A DNA stretch of 64,000 nt. Source: Sedimentitalea arenosa (GTDB lineage: Bacteria > Pseudomonadota > Alphaproteobacteria > Rhodobacterales > Rhodobacteraceae). Each line of letters opens with the position of its first letter. Position 1 is the stretch's first letter. The notes below the pieces were generated by a model, which made no database searches, was not told the DNA's origin, and was given only the letters and a program-made list of their open reading frames with translations. The stretch covers positions 62,001-126,000 of the forward strand of contig NZ_JAELVR010000012.1 in NCBI RefSeq assembly GCF_016428585.1. Reading direction: 5' to 3'. A program made the position numbers and the translations under genes. Positions 1,649 to 8,373 of this stretch are shown here, piece by piece.

Positions 1649-1758
1649 GATTCGCGGTCGATTCGCGGTTTTTACGGGGTCAAACCGGGGCGAATCCGGG
1701 TGGGAGGTAAGTTTTTTTTAACGATCAGAGCGTCAGCCTGTTTTCATTGAGCGTCAGC
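1649..1758 (+). promoter_or_regulatory. Helically phased direct repeats upstream of the repeat-protein gene
   Basis: The 382-bp gap between xthA and the repeat protein holds no gene but contains two direct-repeat pairs. GATTCGCGGT occurs at 1649-1658 and again at 1660-1669 (11-bp period, one helical turn). GAGCGTCAGC occurs at 1728-1737 and 1749-1758 (21-bp period, two turns). From about 1700 the DNA is also markedly more AT-rich than its surroundings. Such phasing is typical of activator or response-regulator sites. No specific regulator can be named. Confidence 0.35.
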
Positions 1759-1810
1759 AACTTGCGTGTTTTTCTTCATGTGGATAAGTGGCGAATTGCT
1801 CAACTTCTAA

Positions 1811-1839
1811 TTGAAAAACTTCTTTTCTTTTCCCGATTA
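1811..1839 (+). promoter_or_regulatory. Candidate heat-shock-type (RpoH-like) promoter
   Basis: TTGAAA at 1811-1816 is followed after 15 bp by CCCGATTA at 1832-1839. This resembles the sigma-32 pattern (TTGAAA, 11-16 bp, CCCCATNT), with 6 of 8 matches in the -10 part. It lies about 50 bp before the ATG of the repeat protein, in AT-rich DNA. A sigma-70 reading (TTGAAA with GATTAA) is weaker. The assignment rests on pattern only. Confidence 0.3.
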
Positions 1840-1890
1840 AGCTGTAACCGTCGAGGGGCAAATCAACCCTCAACAAGCAGGAAAATCGAT

Positions 1891-2466
1891 ATGACCGCAC
1901 AACGCAAAACCACCGAACTCCTTGTTTCCGCACAGGTTTCCGACAGCTCCAGCCTGTTCGACGGCGACGGCACGCACATGTTCTGCTCGGCGTCCGAGCC
2001 GATGATGGGCGGGGATGCGCTGACGGGCGACGGCACGCACATGTTCTGTTCCGCATCGACCCCGACCGCCCGCGGCGACGTGATCACCGGCGACGGCGTG
2101 CACATGTTCTGCTCGGCCTCGACCCCGAGCGCGAGCGCCGAGGCGATCACCGGAAACGGTGTCGAGATGTTCTGTTCGGCGTCGACCCCGACCGCCCGCG
2201 GCGATGCGATCACCGGCGACGGCGTGCACATGTTCTGCTCGGCCTCGACCCCGAGCGCGAGCGCCGAGGCGATCACCGGGAACGGTGTCGAGATGTTCTG
2301 TTCCGCATCGACCCCGACGGCCAGCAATGAAGCAATCACCGGCCAGGGTGTGGAGATGTTCTGCTCGGCCTCGACCCCGACCGCCAGCGCCGACGCGATC
2401 TCCGGTGACGCCACGCAGATGTTCTGCTCGGCCTCCACGCCGTCCTCCACGGTCAAGGGCGCCTGA
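1891..2466 (+). CDS. Leader plus eight-repeat MFCSAS protein (possible multi-core peptide precursor)
   Basis: 191 residues. The ATG at 1891 was chosen because AGGA lies about 8 bp upstream and because the frame before it is AT-rich non-coding DNA. Residues 1-24 form a polar, Ser-rich leader (MTAQRKTTELLVSAQVSDSS...). From residue 25 there are eight units of 21 residues (the last has 20). Each unit starts G-x-[GA]-x-x and carries MFCSASTP (MFCSASEP in unit 1) followed by a variable Ala/Ser stretch and A-[IL]-[TS]. The residue before MFC is His in units 1-3 and 5, Glu in 4, 6 and 7, and Gln in 8. There is exactly one Cys per unit and none elsewhere. I see no signal peptide or membrane segment. 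A modified-peptide precursor with repeated cores, or a metal-binding repeat protein, would both fit. The family is not recognised with certainty. Confidence 0.85.
   Translation: MTAQRKTTELLVSAQVSDSSSLFDGDGTHMFCSASEPMMGGDALTGDGTHMFCSASTPTARGDVITGDGVHMFCSASTPSASAEAITGNGVEMFCSASTPTARGDAITGDGVHMFCSASTPSASAEAITGNGVEMFCSASTPTASNEAITGQGVEMFCSASTPTASADAISGDATQMFCSASTPSSTVKGA
1963..2463 (+). repeat. Eight in-frame 63-bp tandem repeats
   Basis: Units begin at 1963, 2026, 2089, 2152, 2215, 2278, 2341 and 2404; the last is 60 bp. Units 3+4 and 5+6 form a 126-bp higher-order duplication: units 3 and 5 encode identical 21-mers, and units 4 and 6 differ only near their ends. This points to recent copy-number change by slippage or unequal recombination, with the coding frame kept. 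Confidence 0.95.
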
Positions 2467-2508
2467 TCGGTGCCCGCGGCGATCGACGCAGACCTGTCGG
2501 GGCGCACG

Positions 2509-2745
2509 ATGTCACACAGTGGAGCCGAACTGTTCCATTTCGTGTCAGCCCTGACGGCCAGTGGCGACGCTGCTGCAGGAATTGCTGCGCAAGAGAACTC
2601 TCCTGTCACGACCCACGGCATCCGGGCCGCGGGCGTGACCGGAGAAGGGGCGCCGATGCCCCGGGCTTACGCTACGTCATGCAAGAGATCGTTGGTAAGC
2701 TGGGTGCGACATCGGGATCGGGGTCTGGGGCCGAACGGCCACTGA
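2509..2745 (+). CDS. Small frame with decayed repeat units (separate peptide or eroded tail)
   Basis: After the TGA at 2464-2466, the same reading frame stays open to 2745. From the ATG at 2509 it would give 78 residues starting MSHSGAELFHFVSALTASGD. Aligned with repeat unit 4, residues 3-22 keep 9 of 20 positions (G, E, F, S, T, A, G, D, A), but Cys has become His and Pro has become Leu. A second, weaker echo is VTGEGAPM against ITGDGVHM. There is no strong ribosome-binding site before 2509. It could be a second small peptide, or the remnant of a longer repeat array cut by the stop codon. The rest of 2467-2808 holds only a 5-bp GC hairpin (2647-2662) and the Shine-Dalgarno of the next gene. 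Confidence 0.35.
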   Translation: MSHSGAELFHFVSALTASGDAAAGIAAQENSPVTTHGIRAAGVTGEGAPMPRAYATSCKRSLVSWVRHRDRGLGPNGH

Positions 2746-2808
2746 CGTCGCGCTGAAGTTGGGCAACGGGCGTTCAGGGAGACGCCTTGCAGGAAAGGGA
2801 AAAACCCA

Positions 2809-3885
2809 ATGTCGAATGTCATTCAACTGAAGCTTCCGGTGCAGCGCCAGTCGGACGCCGCACGCCGAGCGGCCTTGATCGCCAGCTTTGCCAACTACCG
2901 CCGGTTCGGCGACGATGTCTTCTGGCTGAAGGAAAACGCCGAGTTGATGAACATCCTGGAATGCACCGGGGCCGCGCTGGCCGAGGACGCGTTGCAGCCG
3001 CTTCAGGGGTTTTACGACCAGGCCGAGAAGCGCCTGGGGTTCTTTCCGCAATATTACCGTTTCCTGCTGTCGCTCTGCCTGGACCTCGAGGATCTGGGAT
3101 TGCCGGGAAACAAGGCCGAAGCTCTGTGCTCCTGGGCCGCCCGGGAAGGGCTGGCCGAGGCGGAACTGTCGGACCTGCAGCGTCTGGAGGCCCGCCGTCT
3201 GATGGCGCGGCGCGGCATCGATCCGCTGCCCCATGACGCGGGGCTCGAGGATCGGGTGCGCCGCTTCATGGATCGCTCCGACACCTTCGCCATGCCCAAC
3301 AAGAAGGCGGCCTATGAGCTGACACATATCGTCTTTTACCTGAGCGAGTACGGTCGCCGCGATCCGGGCCTGTCCGCGGCCGCGATCACTTCGCTCGAAT
3401 ATGCCGGAATCCTGGCCTATCTCGACCAGAACGCCGACCTGCTGGCCGAGATCTGCATCTCGCTGCGCTATGCGGGCGAGACACCCAGCCAGATCTGGGA
3501 AGGCTGGCTCGAGCGCGAGACCCATCGCTTTGCCGTCGTGACCGGGCCGCAGGCCAGCACGGCGGACAACTATCACGACTATTTCGTCTGCAACTGGCTG
3601 ATGGCGCAATCCGGGCGCGATGCCTTCCGAAAGGATGCGGCGCCGGAGCGGATGGCCTTCCACCGGGCCGAGCCTTTCGTCGGACCGCTGCGCGAGATGT
3701 CGGAATGCATCTTTCACATGGAGGACGCCCGAACCGGAGACTGGCACGCGATGCGGCCCCACGTGCAGGGCGTGCTGAGCGAGACGGGGCACGACATCCT
3801 GGCCGAAGCCGAGCAGAGCAGCGACAAGTTCGCCGACTTCTTCGCCGGTTTCGCCCGGACCGGGTTGCGCGGGGTGGCGCTGTGA
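2809..3885 (+). CDS. Uncharacterised 358-aa helical protein of the repeat-protein locus
   Basis: The start ATG is preceded by AGGAAAGGG at 9-bp spacing. The protein appears all-helical and soluble, with no signal peptide or membrane segment. Visible conserved-looking patches are FGDDVFWLKENAELMNILE (about residues 33-51), ELTHIVFYLSEYGRRDP (about 168-184), DNYHDYFVCNWLM (about 248-260) and a C-terminal Glu/Asp-rich helix. The T-H-x-x-F-Y-L motif recalls alpha/alpha-barrel or toroid enzymes, but I cannot assign a family and see no radical-SAM, LanC, YcaO or MNIO signature. Its position between the repeat protein and the overlapping EamA exporter suggests it acts on, or together with, the repeat protein. 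That is inference from context only. Confidence 0.85.
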   Translation: MSNVIQLKLPVQRQSDAARRAALIASFANYRRFGDDVFWLKENAELMNILECTGAALAEDALQPLQGFYDQAEKRLGFFPQYYRFLLSLCLDLEDLGLPGNKAEALCSWAAREGLAEAELSDLQRLEARRLMARRGIDPLPHDAGLEDRVRRFMDRSDTFAMPNKKAAYELTHIVFYLSEYGRRDPGLSAAAITSLEYAGILAYLDQNADLLAEICISLRYAGETPSQIWEGWLERETHRFAVVTGPQASTADNYHDYFVCNWLMAQSGRDAFRKDAAPERMAFHRAEPFVGPLREMSECIFHMEDARTGDWHAMRPHVQGVLSETGHDILAEAEQSSDKFADFFAGFARTGLRGVAL

Positions 3886-4835
3886 GCGCCGCGGCCGCGC
3901 TGACCGCTCCACCGCGGGTTGCGGTGCGGCCGGCCGTTTTGGGGGCCGGGCTGGTCGTCGGCTACACGGCGCTGATTTCCTCGGCGGATGCCATCACCAA
4001 GTTCATCGCGGGCGGCTATGCCGCCCCGCAGCTGTTCTGCCTGTCGGGCCTGATCGTGATCGCGCTGAGCGTTCTGGCCGATCGCCACCCCAGCCAGCGG
4101 CGCGGCCTGCGCACCGATTGCCCGCGCGCCATGGCGGTGCGGTCGGCGGCGACGGTGCTGGCGGCGGTCTCGTTCTTCTATGCCTTCCGGTATCTGCCTT
4201 TTGCCGAGGTTTTCCTGTTCATCGGGCTGATGCCGATTCTGGGCGGGTTGATGTCGGCGTTGATCCTGAAAGAGCATGTGCGCCCGTCGGCCTGGGCGGC
4301 GCTGGTCGCGGGGTTCGTCGGTGTCCTGTGCCTGTTCCCGACCGGCTGGCACGGGGTTACCATCGGGCATGGCTTTGCCTTTTCGGCCGCGGTGTTCGGG
4401 ACGCTCGCCATGGTCATGGCGCGCTATATCGGTCGGGTCGAAAGCAACAGCCTGGCGCAGGTCTTCTATCCCAACCTGGCGATCTTTGTGACCATGGGCG
4501 CCGCGCTGCCCTTCGTCTGGACGGCGATGCCGCTGTCCGACCTCGGCTGGGTGCTGGCCTATGCCGCGCTGCTGTTCGGGGCGCGCTGGGTTCTGGTCGT
4601 GGCGCTGCGGCTGCTGGCCGCCTATGCGGTGATGCCGCTGATGAACCTGCAATTCGTCTGGATGGTGGTGATTGGCGCGCTGGTCTTCGGCGAGATCCCC
4701 GCCGCGGGCACCTTCCTGGGCGTGGCCATCGTGATCGGCTGCGGGCTCTACCTGGTCTGGGACCAGTTCACGCCGGAAACGGCGCGCGGCCCGCTGGCGG
4801 CGTTCTCGTTGCGGATCCGTCGCACCGATCCCTGA
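3882..4835 (+). CDS. EamA/DMT-family membrane transporter coupled to the 358-aa protein
   Basis: The GTG at 3882 overlaps the upstream stop (GTGA), giving about 317 residues; the overlap implies translational coupling. There are about ten hydrophobic segments in two five-helix EamA halves, for example LGAGLVVGYTALISSADAI near the N-terminus and AGTFLGVAIVIGCGLYLVW near the end. DMT/EamA proteins are inner-membrane carriers that usually export small metabolites or amino-acid-like compounds. The substrate is not predictable from sequence. An in-frame start further upstream would run through the preceding gene and is not credible. The gene ends 24 bp before a perfect terminator. Confidence 0.85.
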   Translation: MSAAAALTAPPRVAVRPAVLGAGLVVGYTALISSADAITKFIAGGYAAPQLFCLSGLIVIALSVLADRHPSQRRGLRTDCPRAMAVRSAATVLAAVSFFYAFRYLPFAEVFLFIGLMPILGGLMSALILKEHVRPSAWAALVAGFVGVLCLFPTGWHGVTIGHGFAFSAAVFGTLAMVMARYIGRVESNSLAQVFYPNLAIFVTMGAALPFVWTAMPLSDLGWVLAYAALLFGARWVLVVALRLLAAYAVMPLMNLQFVWMVVIGALVFGEIPAAGTFLGVAIVIGCGLYLVWDQFTPETARGPLAAFSLRIRRTDP

Positions 4836-5337: not shown

Positions 5338-6534
5338 ATGCGCGCGCCACATGCATGCGACCCGGCGGCCAGCAGGGGGCGGCTGGTGGCGGAAGAGGAA
5401 AGCAGTTTCCGGTCCTGCTTTCAGCGGGATCGCGACAGGATCATCCATGCCAGCGCGTTCCGGCGGCTCAAGCACAAGACGCAGGTCTTCGTCGAACACG
5501 AGGGCGATTATTACCGCACCCGCCTGACCCATTCGATCGAGGTGGCGCAGGTGGCGCGCACCATCGCCGGCGCGCTGGGGCTGAACGCGGAACTGACCGA
5601 GGCGGTGGCGCTGGCCCATGACCTGGGGCACACGCCGTTCGGACACACGGGCGAGGACGCGCTGGCGGCGCTCATGGCGCCCTATGGCGGGTTCGATCAC
5701 AACGCCCAGGCGATCCGCATCGTGACCCATCTGGAGCGTCACTACGCGGAGTTCGATGGCTTGAACCTGACCTGGGAGACGCTCGAGGGGCTGGCCAAGC
5801 ACAATGGTCCCGTGACGGGCGGGACCGGCGGCGACACCCCCGGGGGCGCGCTGCCCTGGGCGCTGGCCGAGTATGCACGGCAGAACGATCTCGAGCTGCA
5901 CACCTATGCGAGTGCGGAGGCGCAGGTGGCCGCGATCGCGGATGACGTGGCCTATAACCACCATGACCTGCATGACGGGTTGCGCGCCGAACTGTTCTCG
6001 ACCGACGAGCTGGCCGAACTGCCCATCCTGCTGGATTGCTTTGCCGAGGTGGACAGGCGTTATCCCGGCCTGAACTACTATCGCCGCCGGCACGAGGCGC
6101 TGCGGCGCTTCTTCGGCGTGCTGGTCGAGGACGTGATCGTGCTGGCGCGGCGCAACCTTGGCGATCTGGACCCGTCGACCGTCACCGATATCCGGATGGC
6201 CGGACGGCCCATGGTGCAGTTCTCGCAAGGGCTGTTCGACGATCTCAAGGTGATCCGGGAGTTCCTGTTCCAGCGCATGTACCGCGCGCCGGAAGTGGTG
6301 AAGATGCGTGCCGAGGTGACGGACGTGGTGACCGATCTCTTTCCCTATTTCATGGCGCACCCCGAGCAGTTGCCCAAACAGTGGCGCAAGGACGTGGACG
6401 AGGCCGCCGACGAAACGACGCTGGCCCGGATCGTGTCGGATTACATCGCCGGCATGACCGACCGCTTCGCCTTGCAGGAACACGCCCGGCTGATCCGGCC
6501 CGCGGTGGTGGACAGCCCGCCGGATTTCATCTGA
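5338..6534 (+). CDS. dgt: Deoxyguanosinetriphosphate triphosphohydrolase-like protein
   Basis: 398 residues from the ATG at 5338 (CAAGGA upstream). An in-frame start at 5281 would reach into the promoter region and is less likely. This is an HD-domain phosphohydrolase with metal ligands visible as His65 in LTHSIEV and His94-Asp95 in HDLGHTPFGH, plus the basic RRLKHKTQVF stretch near the N-terminus. It splits dNTPs to nucleoside and triphosphate and helps control the dNTP pool. The family is close to the short dGTPase-like class. It is followed by argS after 93 bp. Confidence 0.93.
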   Translation: MRAPHACDPAASRGRLVAEEESSFRSCFQRDRDRIIHASAFRRLKHKTQVFVEHEGDYYRTRLTHSIEVAQVARTIAGALGLNAELTEAVALAHDLGHTPFGHTGEDALAALMAPYGGFDHNAQAIRIVTHLERHYAEFDGLNLTWETLEGLAKHNGPVTGGTGGDTPGGALPWALAEYARQNDLELHTYASAEAQVAAIADDVAYNHHDLHDGLRAELFSTDELAELPILLDCFAEVDRRYPGLNYYRRRHEALRRFFGVLVEDVIVLARRNLGDLDPSTVTDIRMAGRPMVQFSQGLFDDLKVIREFLFQRMYRAPEVVKMRAEVTDVVTDLFPYFMAHPEQLPKQWRKDVDEAADETTLARIVSDYIAGMTDRFALQEHARLIRPAVVDSPPDFI

Positions 6535-6572
6535 GCCGCGAGGCGGTGCGCAAGGATAGTGGCCGACATGAG

Positions 6573-6600
6573 TTGACCGTCCCTGCGCGCGTGCTAAACC
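6573..6600 (+). promoter_or_regulatory. Candidate sigma-70 promoter for argS
   Basis: TTGACC (6573-6578), a 16-bp spacer and TAAACC (6595-6600) stand 27 bp before the argS start. The -35 is good and the -10 is weak, as is common in this group. Confidence 0.35.
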
Positions 6601-6627
6601 GCGCCAAACCCCGAAGGATGCCCTGAC

Positions 6628-8373
6628 ATGAACCTGTTCGCCGATATTCGCTCGCTCGTCCTCGATTCGCTCGCGACGCTCGTGTCCGAGGGAACGCTGC
6701 CCGATGGCCTGTCGCTGGACGCGGTGACGGTCGAGCCGCCGCGCGACCCGGCCCATGGCGACATGGCGACCAACGCGGCGATGGTGCTGGCCAAGCCGGC
6801 GAAGATGAAGCCGCGCGACATCGCCGAGGCCCTTGCGGCCAAGCTGGCGGATGACACACGGATCGCCAGCGCCGAGGTGGCCGGGCCGGGCTTTCTGAAC
6901 CTGCGTCTCGCACCGTCGGTCTGGCAGGGAGTCGTCGGGGCGGTTCTGCAGGCGGGCACCGCGTATGGCCGCTCCGACATGGGCCGGGGCTCGCGGGTCA
7001 ACGTGGAATATGTCAGCGCGAACCCGACGGGCCCGTTGCATGTGGGCCACACGCGCGGTGCGGTGTTCGGCGATGCTCTGGCGAGCCTGCTGGATTATGC
7101 CGGCCACGACGTGACGCGCGAATACTACATCAACGACGGTGGCGCGCAGGTCGATGTCCTGGCCCGCTCGGTCTACCTGCGATATCTCGAAGCGCTGGGC
7201 CAGGAGGTCGCGTTCGAGGATGGCACCTATCCGGGCGACTACCTGATCCCGGTCGGCGAGGCGCTGGCCGAAGCCAAGGGCGATGCGTGGGTCGGCCAGC
7301 CCGAGGAGGTCTGGCTGGAAGAGGCGCGCAGCTTCGCGACCGACGCGATGATGGAGCTGATCCGGACCGATCTCGCGGCGCTCGGGGTGAAGATGGACGT
7401 GTTCTTCAGCGAGAAGTCGCTCTATGGCACCGGTCGGATCGAGGCGGCGATCGAGGATCTGCGTGCCAAGGGGCTGATCTATCGCGGCGTGCTCGAGCCG
7501 CCGAAGGGCAAGACGCCCGAGGATTGGGAGCCGCGCGAACAGACGCTGTTCCGCTCGACCGCGCATGGTGACGACGTGGACCGCCCGATCATGAAGAGCG
7601 ACGGGGGCTGGACCTATTTCGCCCCTGACATCGCCTATCATTATGACAAGGTTTCAAGGGGGTTCGATGCGCTGATCGACGTGTTCGGCGCCGACCACGG
7701 GGGCTATGTGAAACGCATGAAGGCCGCCGTGTCGGCCCTCAGCGAGGGTCGCGTGCCGCTCGATATCAAGCTGACCCAACTGGTGCGGCTCTTCAAGAAC
7801 GGCGAGCCATTCAAGATGTCCAAGCGCGCGGGCACCTTCGTCACCCTGCGCGACGTGGTGGACCAGGTCGGTCCGGACGTGACCCGCTTCGTGATGCTGA
7901 CGCGCAAGAACGATGCGCCGCTGGATTTCGACTTTGACAAGGTGCTGGAGCAGTCGCGGGAAAACCCCGTCTTCTATGTGCAGTACGCCCACGCCCGGGT
8001 GATGAGCGTTCTGCGCCGCGCCGCCGAGGCCGGGATCGCCTGTGACGACGCCACGCTGGCCGAGGCCGATCTTGGCGGGCTCGATCACGAGGCCGAACTG
8101 GCCGTGGCCAGGAAGCTGGCGGAATGGCCGCGTCTGGTGGAAACGGCGGCGCGCACCAACGAGCCGCATCGCGTGGCCTTCTACCTCTACGAACTGGCGG
8201 GCGATTTCCACGCGCTTTGGAACCGGGGCAACGACGTTCACGGGCTGCGGTTCATTCAGGAAGGCGACGCGGCCGCGAGCCAGTCGAAAATGGCGCTGGC
8301 CCGTGCCGTTTCCGTTGTTATTTCCGCAGGTCTTGGTATTCTCGGCGTCACACCGGCGCAGGAGATGCGGTAA
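6628..8373 (+). CDS. argS: Arginyl-tRNA synthetase
   Basis: 581 residues, normal length. The class I signature is HVGH (residues 138-141, in [14 protein letters not shown]) and the second loop is KMSKR near residue 397. The N-terminal Add-1 domain and the C-terminal anticodon-binding domain ([20 protein letters not shown]) are both present. It charges tRNA-Arg in the cytoplasm. GAAGGA lies before the ATG. It heads a run of closely packed genes (SPOR protein, nagZ, scpA, scpB). Confidence 0.97.

Follow-up and report, generated by a model that had tools for sequence, protein, structure and literature searches.

The repeat gene and its predicted helical partner

The window analysed here is a 64,000-nucleotide stretch of a Sedimentitalea arenosa contig (NZ_JAELVR010000012.1, positions 62,001 to 126,000), in which a repeat gene, a gene for a predicted helical protein of the Pfam family DUF6902 and a gene for an EamA-family transporter follow one another on the forward strand. 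We consider them a candidate system for making short modified peptides from a multi-core precursor of the ribosomally synthesised and post-translationally modified peptide (RiPP) type. The repeat gene spans positions 1891 to 2466, with an ATG at 1891 and a stop codon at 2464–2466, and encodes 191 residues; the start at 1649 given in an earlier, sequence-only reading of this DNA falls upstream of the gene. Its product opens with a 24-residue leader (MTAQRK...SLFD; 1891–1962), followed by eight repeat units (1963–2463). Each unit occupies 63 nt, save for the final one of 60 nt, so the uniform 21-residue length claimed earlier holds for seven units and the last has 20 residues. The leader, the eight units and the invariance of the MFCSAS core, which is present in all eight and starts at 1978, 2041, 2104, 2167, 2230, 2293, 2356 and 2419, were read correctly.

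A degenerate DNA pattern of this core matched eight times in the 3.98-Mb genome, at a spacing of exactly 63 nt and nowhere else, and the reversed control gave no match. Across all pairs of the eight copies, MFCSAS showed 59 synonymous and 0 nonsynonymous differences, while the remainder of the unit showed about 116 and 301, respectively. Since the core copies differ by synonymous changes only, the units are neither a fresh duplication nor a product of chance, and the core is held by purifying selection. A decayed extra unit (GAELFHFVSALTASGDA..., 2518–2589, forward strand) may lie between the repeat gene and the DUF6902 gene, but the resemblance is weak and could be due to chance. Among 38 aligned precursors, the leader pattern M-[TNSL]-A-[QL]..K ... 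S-L-[FH]-D-G is common, and no hydrophobic N-terminal signal was visible in the leaders read.

The window precursor matched no NCBIfam family, and no credible Pfam entry was found for the precursor family when seven relatives were scanned. Two matches above the Pfam cut-offs were rejected as repeat artefacts in which no single stretch passes, namely, TRASH_ZMYM4 on the window precursor (28.7 against 27 bits) and Herpes_UL35 on one 20-unit precursor. The name DUF6749, considered for the repeat protein, could not be confirmed by any paper or by a credible Pfam family in the seven relatives.

Downstream on the same strand, an open reading frame (ORF) at 2809–3885 encodes a protein of 358 residues (P0002). 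The sequence-only reading had described it as helical, in agreement with a predicted all-helical model with a predicted local distance difference test score (pLDDT) of 91.6, and as unknown, which is not wholly so: it matches Pfam DUF6902 (PF21843) over profile positions 1–351 of 351 (563 bits against a cut-off of 27, E-value 2.8e-169), and residues 25–247 also exceed the cut-off of DUF6895 (PF21836; 87.7 against 23.8 bits, 1.1e-24). These were the only two Pfam families detected; none binding ATP, S-adenosylmethionine (SAM) or another cofactor was found. Searches of the PDB gave no match by sequence at E-values up to 1, and none by fold under an E-value of 0.001 when the model was compared with Foldseek, the weak matches including drimenol synthase (template modelling score 0.41) and complement C3b. 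The EamA-family transporter, a candidate exporter, is encoded at 3882–4835 on the forward strand; as noted earlier, its GTG start at 3882 overlaps the TGA stop codon of DUF6902 at 3883–3885.

Pairing of DUF6902 with the precursor in Rhodobacteraceae

DUF6902 is present in 108 of 394 genomes of the window's family, Rhodobacteraceae. In 102 of these 108 genomes, a precursor profile comprising the leader and about two units (A2) had a same-strand match no more than 1500 nt upstream of DUF6902, mostly at a distance of 30–150 nt and at 494 nt at most. Three further genomes (G143, G326 and G404) carry short precursors with odd cores (MMCCS, LSPSC and LMPTSN), recognized by reading and missed by the profile, and two (G043 and G331) have DUF6902 without a precursor. 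With G182 left out, since its locus is a fragment at a contig edge and does not allow a judgement, the precursor lies just upstream of DUF6902 in 105 of 107 evaluable genomes. The sequence-only reading was to be refuted if the two families did not occur together; the outcome is strongly the opposite, as they are nearly obligate partners.

In the genome-wide search, A2 matched 100 genomes, 99 of them shared with DUF6902; nine genomes had DUF6902 only, 285 had neither and one (G425) had a profile match only. On reading, the latter looks like a chance frame lying opposite other ORFs, so that no real precursor was found in the 286 genomes without DUF6902 using A2, a profile that missed 6 of 105 true precursors. 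At the relatives' loci, the best 80 of 337, the repeat gene was directly upstream of DUF6902 in all 80, three of these loci (L078, L120 and L127) being truncated by the contig start. Of the 80 precursors, 33 escaped a first strict core pattern because their cores differ, and the wider pattern was fixed after they had been seen. Among more divergent DUF6902 loci, the precursor was found in 39 of 40 (33 by script and 6 by reading), L174 being the locus without it.

A few individual cases deserve mention. In L222 (G364), the DUF6902 gene is broken near residue 255, close to a contig end, its remainder matches another contig, and the precursor carries a different core, STSSF. An apparent fusion of precursor and DUF6902 in L229 was discarded, as a run of N joins the two. 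The search for DUF6902 on plasmids gave no match. No occurrence was accepted outside Rhodobacteraceae: in 289 genomes of the class, the three matches over the cut-off all belonged to the same family and G063 fell below it.

The surroundings of the pair are also conserved. An exonuclease gene lies upstream on the opposite strand in 76 of the 80 relatives, and three of the remaining four loci are cut by the contig start; this constant neighbour indicates that the cassette occupies a fixed chromosomal slot. An EamA match is next downstream of DUF6902 in 68 of the 80, and two other loci are cut by contig ends. In the window, the scan covered six neighbours between 48 and 9513, which match FAD-binding, exo/endonuclease, iron–sulfur assembly, HD phosphohydrolase, arginyl-tRNA synthetase and SPOR families. 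Neither a lasso cyclase nor a leader peptidase, by which a lasso-peptide locus would be recognized, was found among these six or EamA.

Multi-core RiPP precursors, such as those of cyanobactins and orbitides, consist of a leader and repeated cores, with a partner enzyme adjacent and often an exporter as well. The window locus shares this layout, with a precursor that encodes leader and cores, judged on architecture and selection only, and a dedicated partner gene adjacent to it. It differs from the known systems in that no usual RiPP enzyme was found among the window neighbours scanned and its precursor has no credible Pfam entry.

Selection and exchange of the peptide core

Core statistics were obtained from 80 precursors, those of 79 relatives and the window. 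They contain 2–20 units, mostly spaced by 20 or 21 residues. The cores have constant flanks, a G-[D/E] mark preceding the core Phe by six residues and, in most, an x-P following the core. In 67 of the 80, the C-terminus of the precursor is exactly the last core residue. Ser and Thr are abundant in the cores, which outside this genome include FSSGS, FTSGL, FTSSL and FISWS. With each unit anchored on a Gly at −6 and on F, Y or V at 0, core positions +1 to +4 had a ratio of nonsynonymous to synonymous differences (pN/pS) of 0.23, compared with 0.83–0.91 in the linkers, and an identity of 0.93 within genes and 0.51 between genes. A first selection test (ratio 0.115) was set aside as biased, because its units had been chosen for resembling the modal core. 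Mapped on a FastTree tree of 109 DUF6902 proteins, the modal core comprises 32 types and undergoes at least 48 changes, a count made without a shuffled control that omits three duplicates and the loci whose cores do not fit a five-letter frame. The core is conserved inside a gene by selection, yet swapped en bloc between species. Constant flanks around a species-specific core form a pattern that fits a repeat encoding a product.

Some precursors combine two kinds of core. In the Ruegeria loci L101, L116 and L135, FSSGS and FSTSC cores occur in one gene, with FSSGS in the first and last units, which suggests two products. The precursor of L068 mixes FTSGS and FTTSA cores.

The main alternative raised from the sequence was a metal or thiol buffer acting through an H/E-M-F-C motif, similar to MNIO/bufferin-type peptides, which are small Cys proteins with a partner of the multinuclear non-haem iron-dependent oxidase (MNIO) type. 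The window genome alone invites the comparison, as its small repeat protein bears eight regularly placed Cys. However, the modal core contains Cys in only 6 of the 80 genes, and 41 of the 80 precursors have no Cys at all, so the invariant Cys is a feature of this genome and not of the precursor family, for which a Cys metal buffer is refuted. Moreover, no MNIO, the partner expected of a bufferin-type metallophore, was seen among the proteins scanned at the window locus. We give this explanation almost no credence.

Another explanation is that the precursor is a structural or surface repeat protein whose units stack as a beta-solenoid with residue ladders, DUF6902 being its chaperone. One of five AlphaFold2 models of the window precursor is indeed a beta-solenoid in which each unit forms two or three strands (mean pLDDT 73.5), and matching along ladders would homogenize the cores too. 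On the other side, the remaining four models reached pLDDT values of 45–54, and AlphaFold is known to over-call solenoids on near-perfect repeats. A regular stack also agrees poorly with cores that lie 8 residues apart at 46 of 541 spacings, with genes of just two or three units and with linkers that evolve almost neutrally, nor does the lack of a visible hydrophobic signal in the leaders favour a surface protein. Taken together, a solenoid is improbable.

The DUF6895 relationship and a proposed pathway

The family DUF6895 provides a clue to what DUF6902 may do. The two families align with an hhalign probability of 97.0 and an E-value of 8e-11. Eight columns are invariant in ten of ten DUF6895-type proteins, and in a joint alignment with nine DUF6895-type rows they correspond to E42, Y169, H173, G182, D210, E214, Y255 and H256 of P0002, with E42 paired with Q in one of the nine rows. 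E42, Y169, H173, D210, E214, Y255 and H256 are, therefore, candidate catalytic residues.

The 194 loci surveyed encode 161 distinct DUF6902 proteins, of which 160 are readable at these positions and one is a fragment, and they provide a natural control. H173, Y177 and D210 are changed solely in L026 and L174, the two surveyed loci without a precursor; residues of the candidate catalytic set are lost together with the precursor. H256 is changed in L026; in L222, L246, L247 and L248, whose DUF6902 genes are truncated or broken, this residue could not be assessed. In G331 (L174/L223), a DUF6902 gene without H173, D210 and a precursor still has an open frame and is perhaps a decaying copy.

DUF6895 is rare in a sample of the phylum, with matches in 13 of 398 genomes, 11 of them over the cut-off and at least six of them DUF6902 genomes. 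We examined 12 DUF6895-type loci (L150–L152, L154–L156 and L207–L212), and a small leader-plus-core ORF lies directly upstream in nine of them. These are found at 7437–7868 of L151 (reverse strand), 6200–6685 of L152, 6446–6703 of L150 (both forward) and 7962–8198 of L154 (reverse), all four in genomes of the phylum, as well as beside plasmid DUF6895 genes of Streptomyces, Pseudalkalibacillus, Kitasatospora and Gemmatirosa (L207 6747–6953, L208 6602–6862, L210 6548–6904, L212 6468–6665 and L211 6218–6481). Most share a leader resembling ALxxSG[IL][IVL][ND]xxTxxQL, including most of the plasmid ORFs, with L211 as the poorest fit. Most also have an aromatic core, such as GPWFVL, GPWYIYKE or GYVLAWDKYVLVV, and the ORFs of L151 and L152 carry two cores each. 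No small precursor ORF was seen at L209 or L155, and L156 is below the cut-off. L209, on a Streptomyces chartreusis plasmid, has two tandem DUF6895-like ORFs at about 5661–7903. No lasso gene is annotated in L207, L208, L210 or L212, where many features are hypothetical.

A DUF6895-family protein is named in a title as an epimerase in lasso-peptide modification (Shi et al. 2026, an entry in the reference list of PMC13352647), this review being the single item of DUF6895 literature found. DUF6902 differs from a lasso system in having no lasso genes among the neighbours scanned. Like DUF6895, DUF6902 usually lies beside a small precursor-like gene; it differs in forming a separate branch, found solely in Rhodobacteraceae among the genomes searched, and in its repeat-type precursors with another leader. 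MslH, the epimerase of the lasso peptide MS-271, uses two His/Asp pairs for acid–base chemistry (PMC10406935). DUF6902 likewise has two conserved His together with Asp and Glu, but MslH has a calcineurin-like fold and a metal, whereas DUF6902 is predicted to be all-helical.

No literature on DUF6902 was found, in a search that most subscription papers and all preprints lay outside, and none on the core strings; titles and abstract openings on multicore RiPPs, RiPP epimerases and Roseobacter, and peptide epimerases held nothing on this system. As far as the literature was searched, the claim of an undescribed system stands for DUF6902 and its precursor, but not for the DUF6895/DUF6902 superfamily, which is no longer functionally blank if the epimerase title is taken at its word.

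The multi-core RiPP layout proposed from the sequence is well supported by the pairing and by the conserved His/Asp/Glu set shared with DUF6895. It is very likely that the repeat gene encodes a multi-core precursor that is modified and that DUF6902 is the enzyme responsible, an assignment of DUF6902 that is drawn from homology. In the reading as a whole, which we favour with moderate confidence, the system is a multi-core one of the RiPP type, and DUF6902 changes the cores, probably through epimerisation. The same RiPP logic could apply with DUF6902 performing other chemistry on a Ser/Thr/Cys-rich core, such as dehydration, cyclisation, cross-linking or cleavage. The Ser/Thr-rich cores, the weak helical folds returned by Foldseek and the distance between DUF6902 and DUF6895 would suit this option, which we regard as possible but unlikely: DUF6902 shares its conserved residues with the family to which the epimerase of that title belongs, and the protein has no Pfam family for ATP, SAM or a cofactor.

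Several observations weigh against the epimerising RiPP reading, besides the solenoid model mentioned above. Between about half and two thirds of DUF6902 aligns to DUF6895, with 20% identity in the aligned columns, and with so distant and partial an alignment the reaction could differ. The catalytic set is deduced from conservation, and L173 has a changed Y169, while L157 and L159 have a changed Y255; all three have precursors, so these two residues are not absolute. At 26% identity, the DUF6902 of L026 is so diverged that it could be a different paralogue, and L174 is then the cleaner of the two controls. The sensitivity of A2 leaves room for a rare lone precursor with an odd core. EamA is absent from 10 of the 80 loci despite room for it, and no protease or recognition element was found among the neighbours scanned.

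Under the epimerising RiPP reading, the repeat gene would yield a cytoplasmic precursor with a leader and 2–20 short cores embedded in fast-evolving linkers. We infer that DUF6902 would bind this precursor and covalently modify every core by His/Asp/Glu acid–base chemistry, with epimerisation of one alpha-carbon to a D-residue as the likeliest reaction. A protease, none being seen at the locus, would then release the cores, and EamA, where present, may export the small product. As a more tentative extension, these systems could represent a new RiPP class, in which multi-core precursors and a stand-alone family of helical His/Asp/Glu epimerases (DUF6902/DUF6895) yield short D-residue peptides whose rapidly switching, species-specific sequences act as signals or interference peptides of roseobacters.

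If this is true, RiPP enzymes of this superfamily would be widespread, their small precursors occurring as well in Streptomyces, Kitasatospora, Pseudalkalibacillus and Gemmatirosa. A function is suggested for a domain of unknown function, and a candidate peptide epimerase of new fold would have repeated substrates provided by nature. In about a quarter of the sampled Rhodobacteraceae genomes, a conserved locus on the chromosome encodes what seems to be an unknown peptide. For many marine members of the family, this locus looks like an undescribed route to modified, species-specific short peptides, and which peptide a given species makes can now be tested directly.

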